Positions 1 through 33,681 of a DNA stretch of 33,885 bases are shown piece after piece. How positions within the stretch are numbered: position 1 is the first letter of the stretch; each line of letters starts with the position of its first letter. The notes beneath the pieces are model-generated. The model had not been told where the DNA came from. It worked only from the letters and a program-made list of their open reading frames with translations, and searched no databases. The stretch lies in contig JAFGBL010000170.1 of the NCBI GenBank assembly GCA_016933115.1, forward strand, positions 1-33,885. Direction: 5' to 3'. The stretch is from Bacteroidales bacterium (lineage in GTDB: Bacteria; Bacteroidota; Bacteroidia; Bacteroidales; JAADJA01). The position numbers and the translations under genes were made by a program.

Positions 1-1698
1 AATTATGCCATTTTCATTGTTGATCAGGAAAAAAATGTTATCAACAAGCGGGGGTTAGTTTTTGCACAGGCTGACGACTGGCACACCGTAACTGTACCTG
101 TTGATGAAGGGCAATGGAATATGGTATCCGGAACCTGGGCCGCACTGATTGCTAATGTTAATTACATGCAACTGAGCCTTGAATTTTTTGATGGCAGCGA
201 AACGGTTTTTATGGACAACTTTTGCATCACAGATTTACCGCCAGTGGCTGATTTTGATTCCGATATAGTGACAATTTTACCTGGTAATGAAATAACTTTC
301 TTTGACCTCTCAATAAATGGCCCATCTTCATGGAGCTGGGACTTTGGTGACTCAGGAACATCCTCAGAGAAAAATCCTGTTCACACTTATAATTCTCCCG
401 GAATTTACGATGTAACCCTTACCGTTTACAATCATTTCGGTTCTGATATGATCACAAAAACAACCTTTATAGAAGTCCTTGATGATTCACAATGTACCCG
501 ATACGATGATAACTTCGATACCAGTCCGATAAGTACGGTCTGGAATTTCCGGAATGGTACCTGGTCGCTGTATTCGGGGTATTTGATACAAACATCAAAT
601 TACTATGTAAGTGGAAATTACCTGGGCGGTTGTTATGCAATAATTGGAAACCCTGTTTGGCAAGATTATATTATTAATTGTGATTTTAGATCGCTGACTG
701 ACAACGATGCTATCGGATTTGTTTTCAATTATCAGGATGAAGAGAATATGTATATGTTTTTGTGGAGGCTTGAAACCGCTGAAAGGAAATTAATCCGATG
801 GGAAAATGGAGTGGGAACCATACTGGTTGAAGATGCTGTTCCCTATACAACCAACCAATGGTACCACGCTGAAATAGCATCCATTGGTGGGAATATCTCC
901 GTTAAGATAAATGGAGATGAAATTTTCAACGTTATTGACAACACTTTTACCGACGGGAAAGTCGGGCTGTATTGTTGGGCCAACCCGCAAAGTCAATACG
1001 ACAACTTCCGGTTGGGCTGTGAGGGAGTAGAGATAGATTTGACTGCATTTTTAGAGGGATCTTTTGATGCAGGTACAATGTCAACCCAATTGAAAGTTAA
1101 TAATCTATTGCCACTCGGGCAACCCTATTCAGGTATTCCATGGAATTATGCAGGATTTGAAAACCTGGAATCGATTCCCGATGCCAGTATCTCTGATTGG
1201 GTTTTGATCGAGCTCAGGGATGCACCTGATGCAGCCTCTGCCCTGTCCTCAACCAAAGTCGGACAAAAAGCAGCTTTTATTTTAGATGACGGATCTGTTG
1301 TGGATTTGAACGGAAGCAGTCCGTTACGATTTTCGATCGATGTGCAGGACCAATTGTTTGCCGTGGTCCGGCACCGGAATCATTTGCCTGTGATGTCTGC
1401 TTCGCCGCTGAATCTTTCAGGAGGAATTTATCAATATGACTTTACTTCCGGAGCAGGACAGGCTTATGAAACCAATGCCCAGAAGGATCTCGGCGGAGGT
1501 ATATTCGGCCTGTATGCCGGAGATTTTAATGCAGACGGATCGATAAATGAAGATGATAAAACCGTCGATTGGATGGATAATGCAGGTTTAAGCGGCTACA
1601 TGCAAACCGATGGTAATCTGGACGGACAGGCCGATAACCTGGATAAAAATGATCAATGGCTTCAGAACCAACTAAAGAGTACACAGGTTCCCGAATGA
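1..1698 (+). CDS. Secreted PKD / lectin-like protein with shared C-terminal module (5' partial)
   Basis: The reading frame is open from base 1, so the start and any signal peptide lie outside the window; 565 residues are visible. Visible residues 1-78 look like the end of a jelly-roll carbohydrate-binding domain (pattern VFMDNFCIT). Residues 80-160 are a PKD domain with the hallmark SWDFGD and a following HTY. Residues 169-340 resemble a concanavalin/LamG-like fold that begins YDDNFD and ends YDNFRLGC. Residues 345-565 are the shared C-terminal module, with loops DFNADGSINEDD and DGNLDGQADNLD and the tail TQVPE. I see no catalytic motif. A role in binding glycans or other surface material is inferred from the domains only. 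The ATG at 121 is internal, because the domain continues upstream of it. Confidence 0.88.
   Translation, partial: NYAIFIVDQEKNVINKRGLVFAQADDWHTVTVPVDEGQWNMVSGTWAALIANVNYMQLSLEFFDGSETVFMDNFCITDLPPVADFDSDIVTILPGNEITFFDLSINGPSSWSWDFGDSGTSSEKNPVHTYNSPGIYDVTLTVYNHFGSDMITKTTFIEVLDDSQCTRYDDNFDTSPISTVWNFRNGTWSLYSGYLIQTSNYYVSGNYLGGCYAIIGNPVWQDYIINCDFRSLTDNDAIGFVFNYQDEENMYMFLWRLETAERKLIRWENGVGTILVEDAVPYTTNQWYHAEIASIGGNISVKINGDEIFNVIDNTFTDGKVGLYCWANPQSQYDNFRLGCEGVEIDLTAFLEGSFDAGTMSTQLKVNNLLPLGQPYSGIPWNYAGFENLESIPDASISDWVLIELRDAPDAASALSSTKVGQKAAFILDDGSVVDLNGSSPLRFSIDVQDQLFAVVRHRNHLPVMSASPLNLSGGIYQYDFTSGAGQAYETNAQKDLGGGIFGLYAGDFNADGSINEDDKTVDWMDNAGLSGYMQTDGNLDGQADNLDKNDQWLQNQLKSTQVPE
1033..1698 (+). repeat. 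Shared C-terminal module, copy 1
   Basis: Copy of about 221 residues starting IDLTAFLEGSF and containing PWNYAG, DWVLIELRDA and RHRNHLPVMSA, both calcium-type loops, and the final TQVPE. The second position of the usual LKVFLEG opening is altered here (LTAFLEG). Confidence 0.85.
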
Positions 1699-1710
1699 TT
1701 AGGTTGGATG

Positions 1711-2048
1711 TTAACGGCTAAAGCCTGTGTTGATCTGGATCCGGTTCACCGGGCTTCAGCCCGGTGAAATTATTAGATCAAAAAAAATCGGTTGCATGGC
1801 ATGTAACATGGATTATTCCGGAAATCTTTCAGGATTTGAGTCAATCTCCTGCTACGACGCATTTTTTAAAGCCAGAGAGAAAATTTGTACTATCAGAAAT
1901 TGTTTTTTGCATTACCGACTTTACTGAAAATATGGTTCACAACTGATTCGAGAGTTCCTATTAATTTTGGGATAACAAAAATAGATTTTGCAGCGGCCTT
2001 CAGGCCGGTTGATTTTTATTTACAATACCTTTTGGCTTTAGCCGTTAA
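1711..2048. repeat. Palindrome-rich intergenic element bounded by 15-bp perfect inverted repeats (REP/MITE-like)
   Basis: TTAACGGCTAAAGCC at 1711-1725 is the exact reverse complement of 2034-2048. Each end carries two hairpins: GGCTAAAGCC plus TTCACCGGGC-TTCA-GCCCGGTGAA (1745-1768) on the left, and GGCC-TTCA-GGCC (1995-2006, extendable by a C-G pair) plus GGCTTTAGCC on the right. The layout is therefore mirror-symmetric. The roughly 220 bp between holds only short overlapping ORFs with no recognisable protein. It fills most of the 406-bp gap between two secreted-protein genes. No transposase is present, so any mobility would have to be supplied in trans. Confidence 0.7.
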
Positions 2049-2104: not shown

Positions 2105-3691
2105 ATGAAACGATATCTACTTCATCTGTTGCTGGCAATCAACAGTTTGCTGCCCATCATATCATACCCACAAGCCTGGAATATTGGCAACACGTCAATC
2201 ACTTTTTCCGATCCTGACCGAAGCAACCGCTCTATACCAACTCAAATATTTTATCCGGCCAACACAGGCGGAACCAATGTGCCGGTGGCAGACGGCCAAT
2301 TCCAGGTGATCGTATTCGGACATGGATTTGTGATGGTCTATTCGGCTTACCAGTTTCTTTGGGAAACATTGGTGCCGCTGGGTTACATTGTCGCACTACC
2401 TACTACCGAAGGCAGCTTGTCGCCCGATCATCTGTCGCTGGGTTTGGATTTAAGGTTCCTGGTCAATAAACTGAAATCAGAAGGAGAAAATCCGTCATCA
2501 ATCTTTAATGGTCACATTGCTGATAGCGCTGCCATCATGGGGCATTCCATGGGAGGCGGAGCCGCTTTCCTGGCAGTCGAAAATTTTGACGGTGTCAGTG
2601 CAATGATCACGTTTGCCGCTGCAGAGACCAATCCATCGGCCATACAGGCGGCACAGAATATTTCGGTGCCCACGCTGGTTTTTTCAGGAAGCAATGATTG
2701 CGTTACGCCGCCACCCGACCACCAGATACCGATGTATAACAACCTGGCAAGCCCCTGCAAAACTTTCATCTCCATTACCGGTGGCGGACATTGTTATTTT
2801 GCCGATTACAATTTCAACTGCGCATTCGGGGAAGCCTTCTGCAGCCCCTCTCCCAGCATTTCAAGGGATCAGCAACATAATATCATTCTAAGTCATCTGA
2901 TCCACTACCTGGATTTCCAACTCAAAGGCGATCAGCTATCCTGGATCACTTTCAATAACCTGCTGAACAACCCTTCGGGGATCACATCCAACCAGGAGTG
3001 CAACATCAACTTACTGGATCTAAAGGTTTTCCTGGAAGGCCCATTCAACGGAACCGGAATGAATACCGATTTAACCAATAATCCTGAGCTTGTCGAAGGA
3101 TTCCCGATCAACCAACCCTATCATTCTGCGCCCTGGAACTATCCTGGAACTGAATCAATTACAGCCAAACCAACCGGGCTGGTCGACTGGGTATTGATAG
3201 AGCTACGCGATGCACCGGATGCTGCTTCGGCAAATAGTTCAACCATTGTACAAAGAAAGGCAACCCTACTTTTTCAGGACGGAACGATTAAAGGAATTGA
3301 TCAGCAGCCTTACCTGCTCATTGATGCTGAAATCTCGAATAACCTGTTCGTGGTGATCCGCCACCGAAACCATTTGCCTGTTTTATCGGCTCAACCACTA
3401 ACCGGTGTTGATGGCCTTTTTTCATTTGATTTCACTTCCGAATTGGATAATATTTATGGTGGTGAAAATGCAATTACACAACTTTCCGGTGGTTACCTGG
3501 GTATGGTTGCCGGTGACCTGGACGCCAATGGTGAAATCAACCAGGACGACAAGGATTTTCTCTGGTCACAAAATGCCGGTTCAACCGGTTACTTACAAAG
3601 CGACACTAACCTGGACGGGCAGGCGGACAACCCCGACAAAAACGAATTTTGGCTCCTCAACAAAAACAAAACCCAGCAATTTCCTGAATAA
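2105..3691 (+). CDS. Secreted alpha/beta hydrolase with shared C-terminal module
   Basis: 528 aa. Residues 1-24 form a signal peptide (basic start, LLHLLLAINSLLPII core). Residues 25-290 are an alpha/beta hydrolase of the type loosely related to chlorophyllase, dienelactone and PAF-acetylhydrolase-like esterases. Visible features are the opening DPDRSNRSIPTQIFYPA, the oxyanion segment VFGHGF, the nucleophile elbow GHSMGG (Ser148), Asp198 in SGSNDC and His229 in GGGHCYF, a complete catalytic triad. Residues 305-528 are the shared module, ending QQFPE. The enzyme should cleave an ester outside the cell or at its surface; the substrate cannot be read from the sequence. Bacteroidota polyester hydrolases carry a similar GHSMGG elbow, but I do not assign that activity. 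Confidence 0.9.
   Translation: MKRYLLHLLLAINSLLPIISYPQAWNIGNTSITFSDPDRSNRSIPTQIFYPANTGGTNVPVADGQFQVIVFGHGFVMVYSAYQFLWETLVPLGYIVALPTTEGSLSPDHLSLGLDLRFLVNKLKSEGENPSSIFNGHIADSAAIMGHSMGGGAAFLAVENFDGVSAMITFAAAETNPSAIQAAQNISVPTLVFSGSNDCVTPPPDHQIPMYNNLASPCKTFISITGGGHCYFADYNFNCAFGEAFCSPSPSISRDQQHNIILSHLIHYLDFQLKGDQLSWITFNNLLNNPSGITSNQECNINLLDLKVFLEGPFNGTGMNTDLTNNPELVEGFPINQPYHSAPWNYPGTESITAKPTGLVDWVLIELRDAPDAASANSSTIVQRKATLLFQDGTIKGIDQQPYLLIDAEISNNLFVVIRHRNHLPVLSAQPLTGVDGLFSFDFTSELDNIYGGENAITQLSGGYLGMVAGDLDANGEINQDDKDFLWSQNAGSTGYLQSDTNLDGQADNPDKNEFWLLNKNKTQQFPE
3017..3691 (+). repeat. Shared C-terminal module, copy 2
   Basis: About 224 residues from DLKVFLEGPFNG to QQFPE. Its loops are DLDANGEINQDD and DTNLDGQADNPD. 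A small insertion (NNPELVEGF) lies between the MNTDLT segment and the QPY-PWNY segment. Confidence 0.87.
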
Positions 3692-3804: not shown

Positions 3805-6800
3805 TTGCGTTTCTTTACACATAAAAGTATTTTGTTTCTTGTGCTGATCCCGTTAGCCCTGTGCGGGCAGCATTTTACCTGTTACGACAAACTGGATGCT
3901 GCTGACGGGCTTTCGCAAAGTACCGTAAATTGTATACTTCAGGACCGTGACGGGTTGATTTGGTTCGGGACGCAAGATGGCCTCAACGTTTACGATGGAA
4001 TTCAATTTTATCAATACCAGAATATCCCTTCCGACCCCAATAGTCTTTCGAACAATTACATATTATCGCTGTGTGAAGACAGCCTGGGCAACATTTGGGC
4101 CGGAACCATGAGTGGTGGATTGAATTGCCTGGATAAAAAAACGGGACAATTCCAGGTTTTTTTGCACGATCCGGAAGATAATACCGGGATATCCAACAAC
4201 AATATCTGGGCATTGGCGGTTGACAACTGTAATAATATTTTTGCAGGTACCAGCAAGGGCTTGAATATATATTCAATTGATGCAAAAAAATTCATTGTAC
4301 TGAACCACCAAAAGGATAATCCTTTTTCCATCCCATCAGATTTTGTTGTAAGCGTTCATATTGATGCAATAGGGGAAATTTGGGTAGGAACCAGCAACGG
4401 CCTGGCTCAATACATAAACAACAATAAAACTTTCAAGAGAATTTCAGGCTCTGATGAGACAGGAAAGGGAATCATTGTATGGTCAATTCGCGAAAGTTAT
4501 AAAGGCGTGATTTTAATGGCCACAAATAATGGGTTATTCACTTATGATGACGAAACAGGAATAATCACTCAATTGCCAAATAACTACAGCATCGGGCAAT
4601 ATACCTTTTGGTCGGCTATGCCTTTAAATGATGGGCTGATCCTGTCAGGAACCCGGGAAGGAATCAGGTTTTACAATGTGGAAAGCGGGAAGTTTGAAAA
4701 ATCTTGTATGGGGTTCGATCAGGACCGATTCGAAGTCAACTCCAACGTCTGGTGTTTTCTGCCCGACCGTTCAGGTTTTATTTGGGCCGGAACCGATGAG
4801 GGTTTGCTTAAAATAAGCACCGAAGAAAAACCATTTCAAACCATCAACGCTGAAGAAAACAGCCATCCAAAACTTTCAGAAAAATCCGTGAATTCAATCC
4901 TGGAAGATCAGGAAGGCAACCTGTGGGTTGGAACCGAAGGAGGGGGATTGAACTTGCTTAAACGGGGCGATGCATATTTCACAGTTTATAAAAGTGGGGA
5001 TGGAACCAAAAACAAAATTGCCGGCGATTATATCTGGTCATTACTGGAGGATTCTGACAATAACATCTGGATTGGAACTTATGGAGAAGGGATTAGCGTA
5101 TTAAATAAAGAAACTGGCATAATAAAACACTTCCAGCATGAAACCCTTGCAAATGACTGGCTTTCGAATAGCCGTATCCTGGCCATGTTAGAGGACAAAA
5201 ACGGAGATATCTGGATCGGAACACGGGGTGGCGGGTTGAACCGCTATCTGAAAGATACAGGCAAATTTGAAGTTTATATGAATAACCCTGAAGACAGTGA
5301 GAGCATTGCTTCAAATACCGTTTTATCCCTTGCTGAAGATGCCGACGGCTTTATTTGGGTGGGAACTTTTGAAGGCGGATTGTGCAAAATGGATCTAACA
5401 AAGAAAACATTTCAAACCTGGGCCAATTTGCCCAATGATCCGGCCAGCCTGTCGAATAACAATGTTTGGGTGATCTGGTTCGACAGCAGGAACCGCATGT
5501 GGCTGGGAACACAAGGTGGTTTGAACCTGGTAGAAAACACGCACAATCGGATGATGTTCAGCCACATCAACAAAAATCATGGGCTGCCAAGTAATGTGAT
5601 ATTCGGTCTGGCCGAAGATTCACGAGGAAATATCTGGATGAGCACCTTTAATGGCATTGCCATGCTGAATGATTCGATTCTGAAGCAAATAGATGATCTT
5701 TCAGGATATTCGCACGATCCGTTTATTCCGCTGTTTACCAACTTCGATGAAAGTTTCGGTCTGCAGGGAAAAGAATTCAACCAGGGCGCCCATTTTCAAT
5801 CGGCCAATGGGACAATCTATTTCGGAGGCGCCGGAGGTTATAATAAATTTCACCCCGATAGCATCCGTTTGCAGGATTTCGATCCACCCGTTATAATTTC
5901 AGAATTTAAAATTTTCAATCGTGAAGTAGAAGTTTTTATAGATAGGAATTCGAATGAACCATCGGAGGAACAAATCATCAAACGCAATGACCGGTATTAC
6001 CTGCCAAAAAAGATTTCCTACATAAATAAACTAACCTTAACTTATCGCGAACGCGTTTTTTCCTTCTCCTTTGCTTCATTGGATTACACCCAACCTAAAA
6101 AAAACAATTTCGCTTACATCATGCAGGGTTTCGAAGACCAATGGAACCATGTGGGAAATAGGAATATGGCCACCTATACCAATCTGTCGCCCGGGAAATA
6201 TATGTTTCGGGTGCGTGGTACCAATTCATCGGGTATTTGGAGTAAAAATGAAGCCAGCCTTGAAATCACCATTCTCCCGCCCTTCTGGAAAACCATATGG
6301 TTTATTGTCGCAGTTGTCATTTTTATAATTCTCACCACCATTCTGGTTGTTCGCAGGATCATCATCAACCAAAAGAAAAAAGCGGTGGAAGAGATGGATA
6401 AAATGGAACTTCAACTCAAAACAATCAAAAATCAGATCGATCCCCATTTTGCCTTTAATGCAATGAACATGATCGGATCCCTTGTTTATAAAGGCGACCC
6501 CGATATCGTTTATGACTATTTTACCCGATTTGCCCAATTGATGCGAAGCACTTTGAAAGACAGCGAAAAAATCTCACGAAGCATCAGGGAGGAGTTGGAA
6601 TTCGTGGAAAACTACCTGGCCATCCAAAAAACCCGGTTCAAGGAGAAATTTGAATATTCAATCAAAGTCAGTCCGGAAGTGGACCAGGAAATCCAGATTC
6701 CAAAAATGATCGTGCAAACCCATGTGGAAAATGCCATCAAGCATGGATTGATGAATAAAAAAACAAAAGGGCACCTTGAAATTTCGATTGAACAAAGTAT

Positions 6801-7029
6801 TGATAAATTGTATTTTAATATCGTTGATGACGGTATCGGAAGGGAGGAAGCCGCTAAACAGAATACACCCGGTACAAAAAAGGGGTTATCCATAACCGAT
6901 AAGATATTTTCACTGTATAAGAAGTTATTCGATTACGATATTTCGCAGGAGATCGTCGACCTGAAGGATATTGATGGAAAAGCATTAGGAACAAAAATCC
7001 TTATTACGATCGATCTCGGAAAAAAATGA
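3805..7029 (+). CDS. Beta-propeller sensor histidine kinase (LytS/YehU type)
   Basis: 1074 aa. An N-terminal signal/anchor (FLVLIPLALCGQ) leads into a long periplasmic sensor of two-component-regulator propeller repeats, roughly residues 25-640, with recurring DxxGxIWxGT strands. A Y_Y_Y-type domain follows (about 720-815, FSFASLDYTQP and YMFRVRGTNSSGIWS). One membrane helix is at about 830-855. The cytoplasmic kinase has the phospho-acceptor region DPHFAFNAMN with His881, then HVENAIKHGL and DDGIGRE of the ATPase domain. The start is TTG at 3805, preceded by AAGAGG; this start gives a normal signal peptide. The response regulator follows 4 nt after the stop, so the two form an operon. Known relatives of this shape sense extracellular glycans or their breakdown products; the ligand here is unknown. 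Confidence 0.93.
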   Translation: MRFFTHKSILFLVLIPLALCGQHFTCYDKLDAADGLSQSTVNCILQDRDGLIWFGTQDGLNVYDGIQFYQYQNIPSDPNSLSNNYILSLCEDSLGNIWAGTMSGGLNCLDKKTGQFQVFLHDPEDNTGISNNNIWALAVDNCNNIFAGTSKGLNIYSIDAKKFIVLNHQKDNPFSIPSDFVVSVHIDAIGEIWVGTSNGLAQYINNNKTFKRISGSDETGKGIIVWSIRESYKGVILMATNNGLFTYDDETGIITQLPNNYSIGQYTFWSAMPLNDGLILSGTREGIRFYNVESGKFEKSCMGFDQDRFEVNSNVWCFLPDRSGFIWAGTDEGLLKISTEEKPFQTINAEENSHPKLSEKSVNSILEDQEGNLWVGTEGGGLNLLKRGDAYFTVYKSGDGTKNKIAGDYIWSLLEDSDNNIWIGTYGEGISVLNKETGIIKHFQHETLANDWLSNSRILAMLEDKNGDIWIGTRGGGLNRYLKDTGKFEVYMNNPEDSESIASNTVLSLAEDADGFIWVGTFEGGLCKMDLTKKTFQTWANLPNDPASLSNNNVWVIWFDSRNRMWLGTQGGLNLVENTHNRMMFSHINKNHGLPSNVIFGLAEDSRGNIWMSTFNGIAMLNDSILKQIDDLSGYSHDPFIPLFTNFDESFGLQGKEFNQGAHFQSANGTIYFGGAGGYNKFHPDSIRLQDFDPPVIISEFKIFNREVEVFIDRNSNEPSEEQIIKRNDRYYLPKKISYINKLTLTYRERVFSFSFASLDYTQPKKNNFAYIMQGFEDQWNHVGNRNMATYTNLSPGKYMFRVRGTNSSGIWSKNEASLEITILPPFWKTIWFIVAVVIFIILTTILVVRRIIINQKKKAVEEMDKMELQLKTIKNQIDPHFAFNAMNMIGSLVYKGDPDIVYDYFTRFAQLMRSTLKDSEKISRSIREELEFVENYLAIQKTRFKEKFEYSIKVSPEVDQEIQIPKMIVQTHVENAIKHGLMNKKTKGHLEISIEQSIDKLYFNIVDDGIGREEAAKQNTPGTKKGLSITDKIFSLYKKLFDYDISQEIVDLKDIDGKALGTKILITIDLGKK

Positions 7030-7033
7030 AACT

Positions 7034-7786
7034 ATGGAAATCAGGGTAGTGATCATCGATGACGAAGAGGAAGCAAGGGACGTGATGGATAGATTGCTTC
7101 ACAGGCTGGGTGGCATTAACATTGCCGGGAAGGCAGCCAATGTGGATGAGGGTCTGGACCTGATCCTTAGTGAACAACCCGATATCGTTTTTCTGGATAT
7201 TCAAATGCCAGGAAAGGACGGTTTTGAACTGGTGAAAAAACTCAGGGATTACAACCTGACCGCAACGATCGTTTTTACCACCGCCCACATCGAATATGCC
7301 GTTAACGCCATGAAGGTGGCAGCTTTCGACTATCTGCTCAAACCCGTTGTTTTTGAAGTATTGAAAGAAACCGTTCAACGTTTCAGGTGCCAGCGAAGCC
7401 AGCAATTAAATGCCAAAGTAGATGTGCTGCTGGATGCCTTATACAAACCAGAAAAAATTTGTTTCAATACCCGAACCGGGTACATTTATATTGCTCCGGA
7501 AGATATCATTTACTGTCAGGCGGATGTGAACTACACTGAGATCTATTTCGGCAAGGAAAGAAAAGAGGTAGTCACCGTTAACATCGGGAAGGTAAACGAA
7601 TTGCTCGATCTCCACAAGTTTTACCGCATCAGCCGGTCGCACCTGATCAATACCAAATACCTGGCAAAGGCCGACCGTCGAAGCAAATCATGTGAACTAT
7701 TAAAAAATGAGGAAAAATTCACGATCCCGGCACCATCAAAACAAATCAGGTTGATGGAGGCATATTTATCTTCCGGTAAAAATTGA
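7034..7786 (+). CDS. LytTR-family response regulator
   Basis: 250 aa. Residues 1-118 are a receiver domain with the acidic pair Asp9-Asp10, phospho-acceptor Asp55 (IVFLDIQMPG), the TT of VFTTAH and the conserved Lys-Pro in DYLLKP. Residues 145-245 are a LytTR DNA-binding domain (IIYCQADVNYTEIYF, then FYRISRSHLINTKYL). It is encoded directly after the propeller kinase and is its obvious partner. LytTR proteins bind paired direct repeats; I could not find a convincing pair upstream of the genes just downstream of it. Confidence 0.95.
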   Translation: MEIRVVIIDDEEEARDVMDRLLHRLGGINIAGKAANVDEGLDLILSEQPDIVFLDIQMPGKDGFELVKKLRDYNLTATIVFTTAHIEYAVNAMKVAAFDYLLKPVVFEVLKETVQRFRCQRSQQLNAKVDVLLDALYKPEKICFNTRTGYIYIAPEDIIYCQADVNYTEIYFGKERKEVVTVNIGKVNELLDLHKFYRISRSHLINTKYLAKADRRSKSCELLKNEEKFTIPAPSKQIRLMEAYLSSGKN

Positions 7787-9329: not shown

Positions 9330-9364
9330 TTTATAAAGAATTATTCATTTAAAAAAATATGATT

Positions 9365-12984: not shown

Positions 12985-13023
12985 TTAAGCCGGTGGAAGC
13001 ATTTTCGCCGGCTTAATTTTTTT
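12985..13023 (+). terminator. Intrinsic terminator
   Basis: TTAAGCCGG (12985-12993) pairs with CCGGCTTAA (13008-13016). The stem can extend through G-T and A-T pairs to a four-base loop near GCAT. Seven Ts follow (13017-13023). It ends transcription from the upstream repeat-protein gene and the conserved element. Confidence 0.8.
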
Positions 13024-13039
13024 GAATTTCCTCTTTTGT

Positions 13040-13047
13040 TATATTTG
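13040..13047 (+). promoter_or_regulatory. -7 promoter box of the GH57 gene
   Basis: TATATTTG is an exact TAnnTTTG match, placed just after the terminator and 19 bp before the start codon. The -33 region is only a T-run. Confidence 0.5.
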
Positions 13048-13066
13048 TCCGGTTAAATTTTTTCAA

Positions 13067-26100: not shown

Positions 26101-28293
26101 TGGGGCGGAACCTCCTCTATGAAATATTGCATTGTTGAAAAGGGTAATCAATATAATATTTATTGCGAAGGCTCAGCTCAACCCACTTTGGAAAACTGTA
26201 CCATCAGGCTTTCAGCAACTGACGGATTGAGGGAATATAATTCAAATCCACCCATATCAAGCTGTTCATTCGAAAATAACGGGGCTTATCCGATCAACTA
26301 TACCGACTGGACCTGTAATTCACTGCTCACAGGGAACAGCTATTCCGGAAACAATCCAAATTACATTGCGCTATCAGGGGGTGAATATAATGCTGACAGA
26401 ACTGTATACAATGATGGTATCCCCTATAGGGTTCTTGGAAATATTGTCATGGTATTGTATTCCAGTCATTCAAGATTAACTGTTGAACCTGGAGTTACCC
26501 TTGCATTTAATCCTGGTATTAAGTTGCAATTGGGATATTCCAGTAATGGTGGTGACCTTTGGGCTGAAGGGACAAGCACTGAAAGAATTGTCTTCAAACC
26601 CTATAATGATGCAATCGGTGGCTGGGATGGAATTTATTTTACGAATTACAATGATAACTGGGGTGGAACTTCTTCCATGAAGTATTGTAATGTTGAGAAA
26701 GCTGCAAATTATAATATCCTTGTTGAAAGTTCGGGACAACCATTTATAGAGAATTGCATTATTACAGAATCTGCGGGTAATGGATTATTTTTGAATAATT
26801 CAACACTTACGATCCGAAATTGCACATTTGCCGATAACGGATCTTATGGTATCCAACTGGAAGGTTCAAGTGCACCGGTCATCGGGAACGATGCGCTTTA
26901 CACTTGTAACCTCTATGGGAACACTGGCTATGAAATTTATAACAATACTACCAACAACATCAATGCACGCTACAATTATTGGGGTACCGGTGATTCAACT
27001 ATGATCGCTTCGCGTATTTATGATAAATATGACAATACTGCAAAAGGGATCGTCTATTTCAACGACTTTGCCCAAATTCCCTCCATCCATGAACCCACCA
27101 TGACACTTGGAGGCGATGTTTGGTATGCCAATCCAGCCATGACACCTTTTGATGGAGCCACCCTCGAAATATTCGATTTCGGTTCGTCTTCTGTGGCTTC
27201 GACTACTACCAATGGGTTGGGTCATTATAATTTCGGAACCGTGACCTCAGGAAATTATACCATGGAGATCACACCGACAGAATCATTTCCGACCGGGCAG
27301 GTCAACAGTACCGATGCGCTGGCAATTCTTCAGCATTTTGTACAAATCACACCTTTGCAAAACATTTACCTGGCAGCCGCCGATGTGAACGCCAGTGCCA
27401 CTGTCAATGGAACAGATGCTCTGTTTGTACAAAAACGCTGGTCGGGAATGATCACTTCCTTTCCTGCAGGCGACTGGCTGTACAATACTACCAACCTGAC
27501 CATCATCGGAAACCAGGTTACCAACGACTTTGAAATGCTGGCTTTTGGTGATGTAAATGCATCGTTTACTCCTGCCAAGGATTGGAACGGTTCGGTAACA
27601 CTTTTACATGAAGGTACACAAATCATTCAATCTTTTATGCCTTTTGAATTGGTCGTTTCAGCTAAGGAACCGATTGAAACCGGAGCCATTTCCCTGGGGA
27701 TTTTCTATCCTGAAGAATACATGGAAATTACCGGAGCTGAATTACTAAATACAAATGGAGGTGCAATATTTACTGCCGAAAACGGGCTGTGCCGCATCGC
27801 CTGGGCCGACCTGAATGCAACCGCTTATGTTGCCGGCGATCAATTGCTGGTACTGAATTGCCAGGCCAAGGATCTGAGCGGAATGCAGGAACCTATTTTG
27901 GTTGGAGTTTATGAAAGCAGTGAGTTTGCAGATGCTTCAGCTCAGGCCATTGAAAATGTGACCCTCACCGCTCCCGAACTGACTACCCTTTCCGTTGGTA
28001 TGGATCAGAAAGTTATGGAAGGATTGTGGTTAAGCACCAATTATCCCAATCCGTTCAATAAAGCTACGAAGATAAGTTATGCAGTTCCGGCAAATGGAAA
28101 AGTCAAATTGACCGTGGTTGACCTGTTGGGGAATATCATAAGCGAATTGGTTAACGAAAATCAATCGCAAGGTGAATATTCAGTGGAATTCAGGGCTGAA
28201 GGCCTCGAACCCGGTATTTACATCTACAAACTTGAATTCAAAAACGCTGAAAACAATGTTCAACTGGTGAATAAAATGAGTGTAACACGTTAA
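23137..28293 (+). CDS. Giant secreted Kelch / beta-helix protein with dockerin-like, cohesin-like and type A CTD domains
   Basis: 1718 aa. A signal peptide with a long basic start ends near DANAQ (residue 35). Residues 60-420 are Kelch-like repeats (YVVGGYND, VYVLGGRDD, VYVLGGFVN) forming a propeller. Residues 480-1310 are a right-handed beta-helix with three 186-residue internal repeats. Residues 1325-1385 look like a carboxypeptidase-regulatory/SdrD-type domain. Residues 1387-1480 carry dockerin-like segments (GQVNSTDALAILQHF and DVNASATVNGTDALF). Residues 1502-1620 are cohesin-like (GAISLGIFYPEEYMEI). Residues 1629-1718 are a T9SS type A CTD (STNYPNPFNKATKISY to NKMSVTR). It should be exported by T9SS and attached to the surface. 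Polysaccharide binding or cleavage is possible for the helix, but I see no lyase motif. The next gene starts 11 bp on. Confidence 0.92.
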   Translation: MKDILQVRVNRRVKNILFTVFTIVFWINCFDANAQVSFTQTLNADFYKGAYNDLIVYGDNVYLPYQATDVGTWLTTTVLPQTLMGQKAATWNNRYVYVVGGYNDLTYSTAVYRATLNTSGISSWTTLNPLPVGLRDHAVVIGTNTVYVLGGRDDSDIYDEIYYATINTDGSIGAWQASSVSLPVALWGHTAVYCNGYVYVAGGANTLSPTAARNNVYYAKVLADNSLSAFTATTNLPATRNGHSMVNHAGKVYVLGGFVNTTGVKQNTVYSATSNVSGSLSSWSTLTALPIAVSNHSSVIINGLITLLGGESGGTLSNSVYYADVNAAPLVWNLASNVMYDRTKDGAAFTRDGWIGFCGGENLSGTPIWNTRYANLTLSSNYEKNGLFISNPFYELGAEREITELTFITGNPAVSNSQIAYRTAGDDLIWGNWTTPTSTSPISVGFTDHYLQYKVIFTGDGLVTPTFSEMNLWTPGTELSGNLNALTSITLANSPYWVTGDVSFTSGTHTFEAGVVWNFLPETGLTVGQANVVCNGTSGNPVQFIGYTNDDGLWDGFYFDPNSDNGVSSQFNYVVIANGGFGSNNANLYCNSSNEPFLNHCTIRNADGNGIRLNNAQINVEFSTIEDNSENGVYLENSNPTFVSCDINNNAAAGVHFTSNTSEPTYSNTIIQNNLYGLHYPSPNYTIYPPNGDPTLTNNTYNGIAIDGGDVTSSNKVWNSIIYDYILLGTVRIVQYSSYVRLTIEPGNTIKALEGVQIQIGMGSNGGELYAIGTADSLITFTSHDGLSGGWDGIWFTQYASGWGGVSVMDYCVVEKGNDYNMYSLSTVQPTMNHSIIRDALVDGLRNASSTHIIQNTQFLNNGRYPYYLLDPGANPTHSGNTYTGNGINRIAVEGGEYGSDRSLTFDNIPYLVLNDIIIVLYSNHSRLTVDPGVIVEFAAGTQLRLGKSSNGGDLWAEGTSGNPITFRPYNGVAGGWEGIYFTQYNDNWGGTSSMKYCIVEKGNQYNIYCEGSAQPTLENCTIRLSATDGLREYNSNPPISSCSFENNGAYPINYTDWTCNSLLTGNSYSGNNPNYIALSGGEYNADRTVYNDGIPYRVLGNIVMVLYSSHSRLTVEPGVTLAFNPGIKLQLGYSSNGGDLWAEGTSTERIVFKPYNDAIGGWDGIYFTNYNDNWGGTSSMKYCNVEKAANYNILVESSGQPFIENCIITESAGNGLFLNNSTLTIRNCTFADNGSYGIQLEGSSAPVIGNDALYTCNLYGNTGYEIYNNTTNNINARYNYWGTGDSTMIASRIYDKYDNTAKGIVYFNDFAQIPSIHEPTMTLGGDVWYANPAMTPFDGATLEIFDFGSSSVASTTTNGLGHYNFGTVTSGNYTMEITPTESFPTGQVNSTDALAILQHFVQITPLQNIYLAAADVNASATVNGTDALFVQKRWSGMITSFPAGDWLYNTTNLTIIGNQVTNDFEMLAFGDVNASFTPAKDWNGSVTLLHEGTQIIQSFMPFELVVSAKEPIETGAISLGIFYPEEYMEITGAELLNTNGGAIFTAENGLCRIAWADLNATAYVAGDQLLVLNCQAKDLSGMQEPILVGVYESSEFADASAQAIENVTLTAPELTTLSVGMDQKVMEGLWLSTNYPNPFNKATKISYAVPANGKVKLTVVDLLGNIISELVNENQSQGEYSVEFRAEGLEPGIYIYKLEFKNAENNVQLVNKMSVTR
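25354..26800 (+). repeat. 558-bp repeat, two full copies and a third partial
   Basis: The segment encoding SNGG(D/E)L recurs at 25432-, 25990- and 26548-, that is, 558 bp (186 codons) apart both times. Approximate copies: 25354-25911, 25912-26469 and 26470 to about 26800. Copies 2 and 3 are closest (DLWAEGTS, NDNWGGTSSMKYC in both). The exact period shows in-frame expansion of the beta-helix. Confidence 0.8.
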
Positions 28294-28304
28294 AAAAAGG
28301 TATT

Positions 28305-31300
28305 ATGAAAACGAAAATTCCAACATTTTTCATAGCGCTTTTCATAATTGCCTGGCCTGTGTTGCTGCGAAGTCAGATCAATACCACAGCCGTGACAGTC
28401 TCCGACTGCCCGGGTGATATTGTGATTCCGATCAATGTGACAAACTGTAATAACGTTGGAGCCATCTCACTGGTGCTGCAGTACAATACATCAGTGATGA
28501 CTTTCCTGAATTTTGAAAATACAAATCCACAGCTTTCATCGGGAACACTCATTGTGAACCCATCGGGTAGTAGTTTACATATAGTTTGGTATTCAACTAC
28601 GGCTGCCAATGTAGGAAACGGAAAGCTGATGGACCTGCGTTTTTCGGGAATAACAGGCTCAAGTACTATGACGTGGGACACCCAAACACCAGGCAATTGT
28701 GAATACAGTGATATAGATGGGAATATCCTCCCCTCTTCTTATACCAATGGTACCGCAACGATTTACCAGGTACCTGAGGTTACAAGCCAACCGCAGGATC
28801 AGGCAGTGCTTGAATATTCAAATGCAGGTTTTCTAGTGGGAGCGATAGCAACCGGGATTGAATACCAGTGGTTTGCCAGCTCCAATGGTGGCATCGATTG
28901 GGTTGAACTATTCAACAGCAGTTTATATTCAGGGGTCAAAACGGCAAACCTGACGGTTTACAATGTTCAGCTCATTTATGATGGGTTTTTATATCGTTGC
29001 GAAATCAGCGGTACCTGCGAGCCGGTTGCCGTTTCAGATCCTGCCGAACTGATTGTGATTGAGCCGTTGATCACTTCTTTTAATGTAGATGAAGTTTGCC
29101 CGGGAACCATTTCCATTCCCATACTTACATCAAATTTCAATAATGTAGCGGCATTCTCGCTGGTGTTCAGTTACAACGAATCTGTGTTGAGTTTTTCAGG
29201 TTTTGAGGAATTGAATGCCTTGATCCCACCGGGCAATTTTGTTTGCAATGCATCGGGTGGAAAAGTGTATATGACCTGGTCATCGACCACTCCGGTTACT
29301 TTTTCCCTTCCCGATACTTCTTTGGTCGAAATCCTGTTTACTGGAATTACAGGAAGCAGCAGTCTGACCTGGGATACAGAAACGCTGGGTAGTTGTGAAT
29401 ATACGTATCTGAACAGTAACAAGATTGTCTCGGTTTTTGTCAACAATTCCTTCACCATTTACCAGACACCCCAGATCACTGTTCAGCCTGTGGATAAGCT
29501 GATCCCGGAAAATACCGCCACCAGCTTCAATGTATCGGCAATCGCCTCGGGAATCAATTACCAATGGCAGATCAGTACCAATGAAGGCGGTGACTGGGAT
29601 GATCTGAGCAATGGAGGAATTTACAGCGGAGTAACTTCAAGCCAGCTGAATATTAGCAACGCATCGTTGGGGATGAACGGATACTGGTATCGCTGCGTTG
29701 TAGGCGGCTACTGCACTCCGGATGCGGTTTCGGATCCGGGTGTTCTGTCCGTTTTGCCTAAAATCACTGCCATCGCTCCGACAGTTTCCGACTGTCCCGG
29801 GCCATTTGTTATTCCTATCGACATTACCCATTTTATCGATGTGGCTTCATTTTCATTGGCGCTCAATTATAATAACGCTGTTCTGACTTACAATGGATTC
29901 CAATCGCTGCATAGTAACCTGGCAGGCGGTAATTTCACAGCCAATGCTTCAGGCGGAAAGGTGTACATGACCTGGTCGTCTACCACACCTGTGACAATTG
30001 GAGATGATCAACTGGTTGAATTGCTTTTCACAGGAGCTATCGGGACATCAACCCTCACCTGGGACACACAAACACCGGGTTACTGCGAATTTGCCACCCT
30101 GGATGGTTTGATCATCTTTTCGAACTATACAAACGGCAATGTTACAGTTTACCAGCCGCCTGCCATTACGAGCCATCCCACAAATAAAACCGCTCCGGCA
30201 GGAACAGGTACATCTTTTTCAGTTTCTGCAACCGGAACCGGGTTGGATTACCAGTGGCAGGTAAGTACTAATAACGGACTAAACTGGACAAATTTGTTAA
30301 ACGGGGGTTCCTATTCAGGGGTCACCTCAACAACCCTGCAGATCAATCCTGTTTTATGGTCGATGGATCAAAACCTATACCGGTGCAGTGTTTCAGGAAC
30401 ATGCCCTCCGCAGGTTTATTCCAGCAATGCATTGCTGGATGTGATCCCTGAGGTGATCTATACTGTTGCCGGCCCCTTGAATAATTCATGTACCGGCAAT
30501 ATTACTGTACCTATCGGGGTTACGAATTGTTCAAATGTGAGCGCCATTTCACTTACACTTAACTATGATCCGGCCAAACTGACCTATGAAGGCTATGAAT
30601 CGGTAAATTCCGCATTATCCGGTGGAATGCAGATTATCTGCAATACCGGAACACAGATCAAATTCAGTTGGGTATCGGTGAGTCCTGCAAATATTGGTTC
30701 AGGAACGTTGGTCAAATATAAATTCAAAACCACAGCCGGAATTTCTACCGTATTGGACTGGGATGACCAAACACCGGGAAACTGCGAATACAGTGATCCG
30801 GACGGATATATCTATGTTACTTCGTTTACCAATGGAAATATTTCCACGGCTGCGAATGCGTTGGTTGTAGATGCCGGGGATGATAAATCCATTGCACCCG
30901 GAGGTTCTGTTCAACTGGATGGCTCTGCCACAGGAGGTGTTTCACCCTATGATATCCAATGGACTCCGGTCACGTGGCTATCCAATCCGGAAATATTAAC
31001 ACCTTTGGCCAATCCACCAGCCTCCACCAACTACCTGCTCACTGTAACGGACGATCTGGGATGCTCGGGATCAGACCAAATGACGGTAGAAGTAATTACT
31101 GCCGGGATTGACCTCAACTTGAAAGTTTTCCTGGAAGGGCCTTTTGAAACAAATGACATGCGGACCGACCTGAACATGCAGGATAAAATACCCTCATCAC
31201 AGCCATACAGTGCTCCACCCTGGAATTATTATGGTTCGGAAACCGTAACCTCAATCCCCGACCCTGAAATCGTCGATTGGATATTGGTTGAGTTGCGGGA

Positions 31301-31781
31301 AACATCAGGAAGTGCCTCTACTGCTACTTCAGCCACTATGGTTGGCAGACAGGCAGGATTTGTTTTCAGTGATGGGACAATATTATCGGAAGACGGTTCA
31401 AGCATGATGCATTTCGATATCTCGGTTACACAAAATCTTTATGCAGTTATCTGGCACCGGAATCATTTATCAATTATGTCATCCGGGCCATTGACACATA
31501 TTGGGCCAGTTTATTCATGGGATTTCACAACCGGTTCAGGACAGGCGCATGGAACCGCTGCCCAGAAACATCTGGGAGGAGGTTATTATGGAATGTACAC
31601 CGGCGATATCAATGCTGATGGTGAAGTTGAATCGACCGACATTTCTGTGACGTGGAAGAATCAGGCAGGAAAATCGGGCTATTACTCCGGGGATATCGAC
31701 ATGAATATTCAAGTCAATAACCAGGATAAAAACGGTCTTTGGTTTCCAAACCGGACGATACAAACACAGGTGCCGGATTAA
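28305..31781 (+). CDS. Secreted protein with four cohesin-like domains, Ig-like domains and shared C-terminal module
   Basis: 1158 aa with a signal peptide (FFIALFIIAWPVLLRSQ). The body is a repeat of about 230 residues: a cohesin-like domain (DCPGDIVIPINVTN, then VGAISLVLQYNTSVM, closing with LTWDTQTPGNCEY) and an Ig-like domain (YQWQVSTNNG, then YRCSVSG). There are four cohesin-like and three Ig-like domains. A PKD-like domain follows at about 855-932 (DAGDDKSIAPGGSVQLDGS). Residues 936-1158 are the shared module, ending TQVPD. Cohesins in clostridial scaffoldins bind dockerins; whether these do so is not known. It starts 11 bp after the 23137 gene with no promoter between, so the two are probably co-transcribed and may function together as a surface scaffold. 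Confidence 0.92.
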   Translation: MKTKIPTFFIALFIIAWPVLLRSQINTTAVTVSDCPGDIVIPINVTNCNNVGAISLVLQYNTSVMTFLNFENTNPQLSSGTLIVNPSGSSLHIVWYSTTAANVGNGKLMDLRFSGITGSSTMTWDTQTPGNCEYSDIDGNILPSSYTNGTATIYQVPEVTSQPQDQAVLEYSNAGFLVGAIATGIEYQWFASSNGGIDWVELFNSSLYSGVKTANLTVYNVQLIYDGFLYRCEISGTCEPVAVSDPAELIVIEPLITSFNVDEVCPGTISIPILTSNFNNVAAFSLVFSYNESVLSFSGFEELNALIPPGNFVCNASGGKVYMTWSSTTPVTFSLPDTSLVEILFTGITGSSSLTWDTETLGSCEYTYLNSNKIVSVFVNNSFTIYQTPQITVQPVDKLIPENTATSFNVSAIASGINYQWQISTNEGGDWDDLSNGGIYSGVTSSQLNISNASLGMNGYWYRCVVGGYCTPDAVSDPGVLSVLPKITAIAPTVSDCPGPFVIPIDITHFIDVASFSLALNYNNAVLTYNGFQSLHSNLAGGNFTANASGGKVYMTWSSTTPVTIGDDQLVELLFTGAIGTSTLTWDTQTPGYCEFATLDGLIIFSNYTNGNVTVYQPPAITSHPTNKTAPAGTGTSFSVSATGTGLDYQWQVSTNNGLNWTNLLNGGSYSGVTSTTLQINPVLWSMDQNLYRCSVSGTCPPQVYSSNALLDVIPEVIYTVAGPLNNSCTGNITVPIGVTNCSNVSAISLTLNYDPAKLTYEGYESVNSALSGGMQIICNTGTQIKFSWVSVSPANIGSGTLVKYKFKTTAGISTVLDWDDQTPGNCEYSDPDGYIYVTSFTNGNISTAANALVVDAGDDKSIAPGGSVQLDGSATGGVSPYDIQWTPVTWLSNPEILTPLANPPASTNYLLTVTDDLGCSGSDQMTVEVITAGIDLNLKVFLEGPFETNDMRTDLNMQDKIPSSQPYSAPPWNYYGSETVTSIPDPEIVDWILVELRETSGSASTATSATMVGRQAGFVFSDGTILSEDGSSMMHFDISVTQNLYAVIWHRNHLSIMSSGPLTHIGPVYSWDFTTGSGQAHGTAAQKHLGGGYYGMYTGDINADGEVESTDISVTWKNQAGKSGYYSGDIDMNIQVNNQDKNGLWFPNRTIQTQVPD
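28383..30850 (+). repeat. Four tandem cohesin-like units
   Basis: Units begin near 28383, 29073, 29763 and 30459, so the period is about 690-700 bp. Units 2 and 3 share the segments GNF-NASGGKVYMTWSSTTPVT. The fourth lacks a following Ig-like domain and ends at the PKD-like domain. Confidence 0.8.
31110..31781 (+). repeat. Shared C-terminal module, copy 5
   Basis: About 223 residues from DLNLKVFLEGPF to TQVPD. It has a good first loop (DINADGEVESTD) and a degenerate second loop (DIDMNIQVNNQD). It is on the same polypeptide as the cohesin-like domains, which matters for any docking model. Confidence 0.87.
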
Positions 31782-31913: not shown

Positions 31914-31940
31914 GTCCCGCCTTCGGCGGGACTTCTCTTT
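31912..31940 (+). terminator. Intrinsic terminator
   Basis: AAGTCCCGCC (31912-31921) and GGCGGGACTT (31925-31934) form a perfect 10-bp stem. The loop can also be read as a stable C(TTCG)G tetraloop. TCTCTTTATT follows. Confidence 0.85.
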
Positions 31941-32022
31941 ATTGTAAATTTCTCGTTTTCTTAATATCAGGGATTCAAATTTGAACTAATATTGCAACTC
32001 AATTCAGGTCGTAAAATATAAA

Positions 32023-33681
32023 ATGAAATTTTTCAGGTCGATCCCGGTACAACGGCACATCGTATTGATTTTATTGATATTGTTCCAGGGAATAGTTCAT
32101 GGGCAGGATACCCTGAATATAATGTATTATAACGTGTTAAATTATCCGGGAAGTACCTCCGCCCGTGTGAATTATTTCCGTATTATAAACCAATATCTTG
32201 AACCTGATATTATCGTAGCCACTGAAGTCCTGAGCGAGGCAGGTGTTTCCTTGTTGCTTGAAGACGGATTGAATGTTTACAATACTTCCCGTTACAGTGC
32301 AGCCCCATTCATCGATGGGCCCGATACCGATAATATGTTGTTCTATAACCATGAGAATTTTGGATTATATTCACAGGATACCATTCAAACCGCATTGCGG
32401 CTGATCAATGAGTATATCCTTTATTACAAAAGTGAGGGCCTTAACAATGGAAGCGACACGGTATTTCTCGTTTTCTATTCTGCCCACCTGAAAGCTGGCA
32501 CAACTACTGCCGATAAACAAAAAAGGTACGAAGAGGTGCAAAGGCTCAAGCAACATCTTTTAAGTTTATCCAATCCTAAAAATGTGATTTTTGGAGGCGA
32601 CCTAAACTTATATACCAGTAGTGAAGCGGCATACCAATCACTGATCAATGATCCTCCGGTCTTTTATGACCCGTTACCTGCCGGTACCTGGCATGATAAT
32701 TTCGATTTTACACCTTATCATACCCAAAGTCCAAGGACAGCTCAATTTGGTGGCGGTGCAACGGGAGGCATGGACGACCGGTTCGACTTTATCCTTTTTT
32801 CGGATGATCTGATCAACGGAACCTACAGGGCCTCATATGTTCCTAATTCGTGTTATGCCGTTGGTAATGATGGAAATCACCTGAACCTCTCCATTCTTGA
32901 TCCGCCTGCCATCACTTCCGTGCCCGATTCGGTTCTGATCGCCCTGTATAATATGTCGGATCATTTGCCGGTTCTTTGTAAAATAGCAATTCAAGATGCG
33001 CATCAACCTCAAGATTATGTCATGAATTTGAAAGTATTTTTGGAGGGCTCATTCAATATTTCCGATATGAAGACGGATTTAATTTCTGAAATTCCATTGG
33101 AACAACCCTATTCTGCGCAACCCTGGAATTATGCAGGTAGCGAAATGCTGGAATACATTCCTGAAAACATGGTCGACTGGGTGCTGGTTGAAGTGCGTGA
33201 TGCCACGGCTCCCGGATTGGCAAACGGAAATACAATGATCGCACGAAAAGCAGGATTGCTATTAAAAGACGGAACCATTACAACAGCGGATGGAAATGCA
33301 TCAATCAAATTCACCTTGCAACCTCAAAATAACCTTTACATCGCAATTTATCACCGGAATCATTTACCTGTATTATCGAACCTACCGTTGACCGAAATTG
33401 AGGGAACCTACTCCTATGATTTTACGAATGCAGCCGGCCATATTTTTGGTGGTATGTCGGCCTGTAAGGAGTTGGCAGAAAATATCTGGGGGATGATCGC
33501 AGGAGACGCAAGCTCAAATGGTACAATTGACCAAACCGACATTGAAAATATATGGTCAGTATATGCAGGCAAATCCGGTTACCTTTTCCCCGACCTAAAC
33601 CTGAACGGACAGGTTGATAACCTGGATAAAAACCAATTTATTATACCCAATTTAGATCAACATTCTTATATACCTGAATAG
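32023..33681 (+). CDS. Secreted endonuclease/exonuclease/phosphatase-family protein with shared C-terminal module
   Basis: 552 aa. The signal peptide ends near residue 27 (IVLILLILFQGIVHG). Residues 28-325 follow the EEP fold in order: MYYNVLNYPG (metal-binding Asn), PDIIVATEV (metal-binding Glu), FYSAHLKAGTT, FGGDLNLYTS (catalytic Asp-x-Asn), DDRFDFIL and the closing SDHLPVLCKI (Asp-His). All key residues are present, so the enzyme is probably an active Mg-dependent nuclease or phosphodiesterase. Residues 334-552 are the shared module, ending HSYIPE. Being secreted, it could use extracellular DNA or phosphate esters. A TAATATTG box at 31987-31994 is a possible promoter. Confidence 0.9.
   Translation: MKFFRSIPVQRHIVLILLILFQGIVHGQDTLNIMYYNVLNYPGSTSARVNYFRIINQYLEPDIIVATEVLSEAGVSLLLEDGLNVYNTSRYSAAPFIDGPDTDNMLFYNHENFGLYSQDTIQTALRLINEYILYYKSEGLNNGSDTVFLVFYSAHLKAGTTTADKQKRYEEVQRLKQHLLSLSNPKNVIFGGDLNLYTSSEAAYQSLINDPPVFYDPLPAGTWHDNFDFTPYHTQSPRTAQFGGGATGGMDDRFDFILFSDDLINGTYRASYVPNSCYAVGNDGNHLNLSILDPPAITSVPDSVLIALYNMSDHLPVLCKIAIQDAHQPQDYVMNLKVFLEGSFNISDMKTDLISEIPLEQPYSAQPWNYAGSEMLEYIPENMVDWVLVEVRDATAPGLANGNTMIARKAGLLLKDGTITTADGNASIKFTLQPQNNLYIAIYHRNHLPVLSNLPLTEIEGTYSYDFTNAAGHIFGGMSACKELAENIWGMIAGDASSNGTIDQTDIENIWSVYAGKSGYLFPDLNLNGQVDNLDKNQFIIPNLDQHSYIPE
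33022..33681 (+). repeat. Shared C-terminal module, copy 6
   Basis: About 219 residues from MNLKVFLEGSF to SYIPE. The first loop is changed (DASSNGTIDQTD), the second intact (DLNLNGQVDNLD), and the tryptophan after the second loop is replaced by Ile. Confidence 0.87.

Follow-up and report, generated by a model that had tools for sequence, protein, structure and literature searches.

Why do six secreted proteins with unrelated bodies, encoded in a single 33,885-nucleotide stretch of a Bacteroidales genome (hereafter, the window), end in the same module of about 220 residues? An initial annotation of this DNA suggested a surface-sorting, anchoring or docking domain. In this report, we conclude that the module is very likely (probability roughly 0.85) an X-dockerin that docks secreted proteins onto the cohesins of proteins bearing C-terminal T9SS sorting domains (CTDs). 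The evidence computed here comprises the fold of the module, its dockerin homology, the fold of a partner cohesin in other genomes, gene linkage, and the co-variation of dockerin and cohesin.

A recurrent C-terminal module

The six copies lie at the following positions, together with two putative calcium loops of copy 2:

1030–1695, + strand: module copy 1 (predicted X-domain and dockerin), C-terminus of the PKD/lectin-like protein 1–1698, whose gene has its 5' end outside the window
3011–3688, + strand: module copy 2, C-terminus of the PETase-like hydrolase 2105–3691; the sequence modelled with AlphaFold2
3515–3550, + strand: first predicted F-hand calcium loop of copy 2, sequence DLDANGEINQDD
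3602–3637, + strand: second predicted F-hand calcium loop of copy 2, sequence DTNLDGQADNPD
12089–12760, + strand: module copy 3, C-terminus of the solenoid protein 9359–12763
15836–16507, + strand: module copy 4, C-terminus of the GH57 protein 13022–16510
31107–31778, + strand: module copy 5, C-terminus of the cohesin scaffoldin 28305–31781
33019–33678, + strand: module copy 6, C-terminus of the Exo_endo_phos nuclease-like protein 32023–33681

All six can be aligned from end to end; copies 2 to 6 are 42–50% identical to copy 1, and 48 alignment columns are invariant. The bodies that carry them indeed differ (PKD/lectin-like, PETase-like alpha/beta hydrolase, solenoid, GH57, four cohesins, Exo_endo_phos), and the stop codon comes 0–1 residue after the module in 6/6 cases. 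This bears out the annotation's claim of a shared terminal module on unrelated proteins. Module HMM scores are 350–364 bits, and the 4.47-Mb genome holds 41 matches, 40 of them full copies, a recurrence far beyond chance. Each module has two loops of the type D-x-[DN]-x-[DN]-G-x-[IV]-x3-D, with one or two ligand positions substituted in several copies.

The C-terminal placement is a strong rule, not an absolute one: among 188 distinct copies with a known end, 179 (95%) stop within 30 residues of it, and the frequent internal positions that would have spoken against the annotation were not found. The exceptions mostly have a FISUMP-like domain after the module. The tail is conserved near (S/T)xVP. 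A signal-peptide-like N-terminus is present in 117/128 module proteins and a lipobox in 0; no other export signal was seen in them. No Pfam or NCBIfam family covers the module, and a catalytic or metabolic identity was thereby ruled out. A known T9SS CTD was likewise rejected for want of a match: searches for Por_Secre_tail/TIGR04183/PF18962, CHU_C and TIGR04131/PF13585 returned nothing in the six proteins at E <= 1, in keeping with the earlier statement that they lack a type A CTD.

Across the phylum sample, the module is present in 53/395 genomes, with up to ~73 copies in sister genomes. SprA was found in 53/53 of these, and in this sample the module is thus confined to T9SS-positive genomes; its occurrence in phyla devoid of a related secretion system, which would have spoken against the annotation, was not seen. 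Module matches in MAGs labelled Thermoplasmatota and Deltaproteobacteria were judged likely to be mis-binned and were not counted as other phyla.

A predicted X-dockerin fold

Structure prediction for copy 2 returned a confident model (pLDDT 96.1, pTM 0.92) in which the module takes the predicted form of an X-dockerin. In it, ~150 residues of Ig/transthyretin-like X-domain lead directly into a dockerin of ~60 residues with two F-hands, the whole forming one compact unit with structural matches over residues 1–225. The best seven Foldseek matches in the PDB are type II X-dockerins of C. thermocellum and A. cellulolyticus (prob 0.91–0.99), at an E of only ~0.02 and a low identity of 14–18%. In VIA-align, eight X-dockerin rows reach Z 9.2–10.2 over 139–148 residues, and the next row stands at Z 4.3; type II cellulosomal X-dockerins are the only clear structural matches in the PDB. 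Rows for pilins, transthyretins and adhesins (Z 3–4) were taken to reflect common Ig-like arrangements.

The sequence comparisons point the same way. Searched against PDB sequences, the module profile matched mostly dockerins through its F-hand part, with a best E of 1.1e-4. While the window copies score below the Pfam Dockerin_1 cut-off, a relative, L278, passes it (32.3 bits vs 22.9). As in dockerins, two F-hand repeats of ~22 residues stand in tandem, with ligands substituted in some copies. Among 114 loci outside the genus, the two repeats of one copy resemble each other (0.355) more than repeats of different copies do (0.163; 0/5000 permutations). This symmetry is absent in the window's own genome (0.184 vs 0.207).

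Among the closest known systems is the type II X-dockerin dyad of C. thermocellum CipA (PDB 2b59, 5g5d) and A. cellulolyticus ScaA (4u3s), which shares the C-terminal Ig-like X-domain plus two-F-hand dockerin. That dyad likewise ends multi-cohesin scaffoldins and pairs with cohesins on anchoring proteins; the present module ends the scaffoldin 28305–31781 and its relatives, whereas most of its other carriers are not scaffoldins. It is larger (220 vs ~155 residues), shares 14–18% identity with that dyad, belongs to FCB-group bacteria, and is carried in each genome by tens of proteins that are not scaffoldins. Further, the anchor in the module system would be held by a T9SS CTD, in contrast to the SLH domain of the type II system.

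Candidate cohesin partners in the window and elsewhere

Cohesins, the candidate partners of the module, are encoded in the window by two adjoining genes, listed here together with a paralogue of the solenoid protein:

23137–28293, + strand: candidate anchoring scaffoldin, with a Kelch/beta-helix body, a CarboxypepD_reg-like domain, Dockerin_1, one cohesin and a type A CTD
27295–27438, + strand: Dockerin_1 of the anchoring scaffoldin, E 3.9e-8
27613–27891, + strand: cohesin of the anchoring scaffoldin (locus L034), below the Pfam threshold, 47 bits with a custom cohesin profile
28042–28251, + strand: T9SS type A sorting domain of the anchoring scaffoldin
28305–31781, + strand: scaffoldin-like protein with four cohesins, Ig domains, a PKD-like region and a C-terminal module
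28389–28682, + strand: scaffoldin cohesin 1
29082–29378, + strand: scaffoldin cohesin 2
29775–30068, + strand: scaffoldin cohesin 3
30474–30767, + strand: scaffoldin cohesin 4, the best Pfam match of the four
19539–22441, + strand: paralogue of the solenoid protein 9359–12763, 29% identical, with fn3 domains

The anchoring-scaffoldin gene comes first, followed after 12 bp by the scaffoldin gene, and this order recurs at loci L158, L159, L160, L161 and L163. A gene for a cohesin and a CTD directly precedes one for cohesin(s) and a module in the window, in two sister genomes (five loci) and elsewhere (four loci); most cohesin ORFs examined within the genus have the module, or else a type A CTD, at their end. 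As in a cellulosome, a multi-cohesin scaffoldin, dockerin cargo and an anchor are encoded together (23137–31781 plus the five other module proteins). Cellulosome cargo consists mainly of plant-polysaccharide enzymes; the cargo encoded in the window comprises a GH57 protein, a PETase-like hydrolase, and nuclease-like, solenoid and PKD/lectin-like proteins. The paralogue 19539–22441 has a type A CTD at 22226–22435 in place of the solenoid protein's module; near an A-run at about 21509, what looks like a 1-nt frameshift breaks its reading frame.

In diverse other genomes, a gene adjacent to a module encodes a protein of 290–400 residues with a signal peptide, an N-domain for which no Pfam family was found, and a T9SS CTD. 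The N-domain occurs in 19/395 genomes, 18 of the 19 being module-positive (P 1.9e-16), and most of its short-ORF matches lie 111–319 bp from a module. Its AlphaFold2 model (pLDDT 92.8) has the cohesin jelly-roll fold (Foldseek E 1.2e-7; Z 15.2, rmsd 2.3); nearly all of the 50 structural rows listed are cohesins, and hhalign against a cohesin profile gives E 3e-5. The domain is thus predicted to fold as a cohesin. The similarity of these cohesins tracks that of the dockerin part, with a partial r of 0.67 (n=21) after control for the X-domain and the CTD, and 0.58 (n=18, 0/2000) once near-duplicates are removed; both control correlations are ~0. At the sequence level, the partner cohesin co-varies specifically with the dockerin part. 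The partner family has no match in the window's own genome, which also lacks the repeat symmetry; the window's partner is therefore assigned by gene layout only.

Genome-level co-occurrence is less telling. Cohesins are found in 34/53 module-positive genomes vs 94/342 others, an association that is weak against same-family control genomes and is therefore not taken as main evidence. Neither Pfam nor profile A4 detects a cohesin in 13 of the 53. Among four of these that were inspected, the adjacent partner is confirmed or likely to be cohesin-like in G172, G289 and G073, and a cohesin-like partner is unproven in G266.

Taken with the X-dockerin fold, the dockerin profile matches and the F-hand symmetry outside the genus, the co-varying partner of cohesin fold strongly supports the docking function that had been suggested. 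The case for anchoring is indirect and comes from the T9SS type A or B CTD on the cohesin partner. Independent sorting by the T9SS is not supported, the module matching none of the CTD families searched, although its restriction to SprA-positive genomes and its absence from proteins with a type A CTD leave some room for a second role as a T9SS signal.

Competing explanations and implications

A different reading is that the module is itself a further CTD family, read directly by the T9SS, with its dockerin-like part a structural legacy. We think this unlikely, yet several observations suit it: the terminal position across phyla and the conserved tail, the signal peptides with no other export signal seen, the presence of SprA in every module genome of the sample, the finding that module and type A CTD never occur in one protein, and the paralogous solenoid bodies that end in one or the other. 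However, only 6/171 sampled genera lack SprA, which makes its association with the module weak when counted by genus; the module resembles neither CTD A nor CTD B, and its fold is that of an X-dockerin. Nor would a free-standing signal predict an adjacent cohesin-CTD partner, in many genomes, that co-varies with the dockerin part. Known CTDs of types A, B and C (TIGR04183, TIGR04131, cl41395; PMC10202324, PMC12618676) are likewise C-terminal on Sec-exported T9SS cargo, but types A and B differ from the module in sequence, type A folds as a plain Ig-like sandwich rather than an X-dockerin, and in the module system it is the cohesin partner that bears the CTD.

Less probable still is that the module binds another surface target (a glycan, A-LPS or an outer-membrane protein) while the cohesins bind ordinary Dockerin_1 domains. 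The window's anchor does have its own Dockerin_1 beside its cohesin, and some module genomes lack a recognisable cohesin; against this, the dockerin part co-varies with the adjacent cohesin and not with the X-domain or CTD, and the partner family co-occurs near-exclusively with the module and adjoins it. Many secreted proteins have dockerin-like repeats and Ig domains, and several occur in this window, so that an ordinary Ig-like/EF-hand repeat tail, structural or adhesive and with no specific partner, might be imagined. Its high conservation, terminal position, partner linkage and co-variation already disfavour this idea, which we regard as very improbable.

We therefore return to the X-dockerin reading. 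Enzymes and adhesin-like proteins with the terminal module would be the cargo, and the module would clip them onto T9SS-exported cohesin anchors; in the window, 23137–28293, with one cohesin and a type A CTD, would be the anchor, and 28305–31781, with four cohesins and its own module, an adaptor scaffoldin. The module would bind the cohesin in a calcium-requiring manner, individual window cohesins would pair with individual modules, and the complex would reside at the cell surface. Cargo may be exported already docked. This raises the tentative possibility of a T9SS signal acting in trans: Sec-only module proteins might dock in the periplasm on the small cohesin-CTD protein of the adjacent gene, with the folded complex then exported. 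If true, type IX secretion would here proceed by an adaptor-mediated piggyback route, in which the cohesin serves many cargos as their T9SS adaptor.

Although the fold family is known, the present branch and its pairing with the T9SS appear undescribed, neither the ~220-residue family nor the pairing having been found in the domain libraries or literature searched. A cohesin/dockerin complex with a T9SS-CTD scaffoldin has been proposed from genomes for Ca. Stygibacter of the Cloacimonadota (PMC8542988). It resembles the present system in its cohesin scaffoldin with a conserved T9SS-type CTD and its dockerin-bearing secreted enzymes, but there the dockerins are on a few enzymes in one lineage, and the description includes neither an X-dockerin module nor a cohesin-CTD partner in a two-gene arrangement, nor a co-variation test (PMC8542988). 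Cohesin and dockerin modules outside cellulosomes were likewise described by Peer et al. 2009, as cited in PMC8542988.

Our analysis gives a name to a module that recurs tens of times in a genome and that the domain libraries searched do not recognise, and would account for many "CTD-less" secreted proteins of T9SS bacteria. It would widen the range of cohesin-dockerin assembly over Bacteroidota, Ignavibacteriae, Calditrichaeota, Chlorobi and Cloacimonadota, and tie it to the T9SS. The two-gene pair offers a ready test of T9SS export with the signal on another protein, and new orthogonal cohesin-dockerin pairs are on offer. Since the cohesin sits on proteins that bear a T9SS signal, many different proteins can probably be hung on the cell surface through this clip-on connector.

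The module in the window and its predicted fold

Six ORFs of the window share one terminal module: its copies align over their full length (~220 residues) at 42-50% identity, and the bodies upstream are without relation to each other, as the initial annotation had held. Its coordinates for an exactly C-terminal module were also right, with each stop codon 0-1 residue beyond the module. The Pfam search it had proposed, run here together with NCBIfam, returned no family covering the module; the only trace was a Dockerin_1 match of E 0.4 to a single copy.

Computed support for a docking function comes from fold, homology, linkage and co-variation. An AF2 model of the copy in the PETase-like hydrolase (2105-3691), built with 40 homologues, is a single compact domain (pLDDT 96.1, pTM 0.92) in which a beta domain is followed by two F-hand helices. 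Type II X-dockerins occupy the top seven rows of a Foldseek search of the PDB with this model; in VIA-align, eight X-dockerin entries score Z 9.2-10.2 (rmsd 3.3-3.9, 139-148 residues), and the best row beyond them Z 4.3. A profile of 27 diverse copies finds mostly dockerins among PDB sequences, on the F-hand part, with a best E of 1.1e-4. Further, in copies from outside the window's genus the two F-hand repeats agree at their variable positions (0.355 within a copy, against 0.163+-0.010 for comparisons between copies; 0/5000 permutations), a pattern that a dockerin with two equivalent binding faces would show. This symmetry is absent from the window's genome: there the first repeat has diverged and the second has stayed conserved. 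A variant class with QNTDET..WKV in both F-hands, seen at loci L159 and L161 of genome G012, suggests a second docking specificity inside one genome.

Between the module genes lie two sensor kinase + LytTR-type regulator pairs and a lone LytTR-like ORF, systems that possibly regulate surface proteins.

Sensor kinase/LytTR-type pairs and lone LytTR-like ORF
3805-7786
16543-19429
22588-23103

At 19539-22441 an apparent 1-nt frameshift close to an A-run (~21509) makes one gene read as two ORFs, through either a sequencing error or pseudogene status. The body of this gene is a paralogue of 9359-12763, but fn3 domains and a type A CTD close it where the other has the module.

Distribution and terminal position

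A profile search of the window's genome (4.47 Mb, 314 contigs) gave 41 module matches, 40 of them nearly full-length, in a genome that also has 150 or more type A CTDs. Every one of the genus's 17 genomes contains the module, in 4 to 72 copies (73 for one of them in a repeated search); it is absent from 24 genomes of other families in the same order. Across a spread sample of the phylum it is present in 53 of 395 genomes (42 genera). Among the named loci are ones from Bacteroidales, Ignavibacteriae/Melioribacteraceae, Calditrichaeota, Chlorobi, Cloacimonadota, Chitinophagales, Saprospiraceae and Rufibacter. The T9SS marker SprA is found in all 53 module-positive genomes, vs 303/395 sample-wide (P 2e-7), although only 6 of 171 genera are without it.

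The terminal position holds for most of the copies fetched: 155 of the 188 with a known end lie within 5 residues of the stop and 24 more within 30, with the remainder farther away. No type A CTD shares an ORF with the module in any copy fetched. A simple heuristic finds a signal-peptide-like start in 117 of the 128 carriers whose N-terminus is visible, and a lipobox in none of the 128. Across phyla, the last residues of the module converge on (S/T)xVP(x), a motif that may clasp the dockerin intramolecularly or act as a signal in its own right. After a non-terminal module there is usually a FISUMP-like domain (GQxYxTVxIGDQCWMAxNL...), and this domain is then the C-terminus.

Non-terminal modules with a FISUMP-like domain (loci from other records)
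L030
L046
L047
L158:120-5444
L159:7294-10251
L228
L230

Cohesin-bearing candidate partners

Two neighbouring genes of the window combine cohesins with the module or a CTD.

Cohesin genes of the window
23137-28293, just upstream of the scaffoldin: Dockerin_1, divergent cohesin and type A CTD
28305-31781, scaffoldin: four cohesins and the module

Sister genomes repeat this order, a cohesin-CTD gene followed by a cohesin(s)-module gene (L158, L159, L160, L161, L163), and distant genomes show it in a shortened version (L095, with duplicate record L217; L182; L187; L198); at L187 a 258-aa signal peptide-cohesin-CTD protein lies 4 bp from the cohesin-module gene. The domains of these pairs are true cohesins, because their profile matches solved cohesins (5e-13). 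Immediately before a module gene, which in L276 is nuclease-like, two loci encode stand-alone signal peptide-cohesin proteins of 172 and 173 aa (L276:7520-8035 and L242:1023-1541). They have neither CTD nor lipobox and are possibly periplasmic or soluble adaptors.

By a Pfam-based survey, about a third of module genomes seemingly had no cohesin, and four such loci were therefore inspected. At all four, the gene next to the module codes for a small protein that combines an unmatched domain with a T9SS CTD; this CTD is type A at three loci and, at the fourth, type B, followed by PorP/SprF. Such genes also follow module genes at many unrelated loci. A profile of this domain matches 19 of 395 genomes, 18 of them module-positive (P 1.9e-16), and most matches in short ORFs lie 111-319 bp from a module. 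Its AF2 model (pLDDT 92.8) retrieves cohesins in nearly all listed rows (Foldseek 1.2e-7; VIA-align Z 15.2, 2.3 A, 133 residues); as modelled, the partner's N-terminal domain is a cohesin. Position beside the module had thus predicted a cohesin ahead of its structural demonstration. An 851-aa protein with three tandem copies of this cohesin-like domain (L285:238-2790, genome G230) is a possible scaffoldin of this family. In some families there are ORFs of ~2000 aa (L290, L291, L294 and L296) with a weak cohesin-like match; in L290, by eye, a degenerate X-dockerin precedes the cohesin-like domain and a C-terminal tail, seemingly in one chain, in line with the pairing of the two.

In 21 adjacent module/partner pairs, with X-domain and CTD similarity controlled, dockerin-part similarity correlates with that of the partner cohesin (partial r 0.67 on raw values and 0.48 on ranks; with near-duplicates removed, 0.58 and 0.40), values reached in 0-2 of 2000 permutations. 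The control partial correlations, X-domain/cohesin and dockerin/CTD, are about zero. Such dockerin-specific co-variation is predicted by an interface, not by shared ancestry alone.

Proposed export and anchoring

Cohesins and dockerins outside Clostridia have been reported, as has a T9SS-CTD scaffoldin in Cloacimonadota (PMC8542988). Searches of open-access papers on dockerin + T9SS, X-dockerin + Bacteroidota and cohesin/dockerin + Ignavibacteria turned up no account of the module or its pairing.

The module proteins carry a Sec signal only. Tentatively, and at roughly one chance in three, they would cross the outer membrane docked on the partner, which would carry them through the T9SS. Alternatively, the T9SS may read the module too, or the module proteins may exit by another route and dock afterwards.

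From what the cohesin-dockerin and T9SS fields have established, the CTD-bearing partner would be exported and anchored, and the module and cohesin would bind via calcium-loaded F-hands. Multi-cohesin proteins would serve as adaptors, and the module proteins would thereby be kept at the cell surface.
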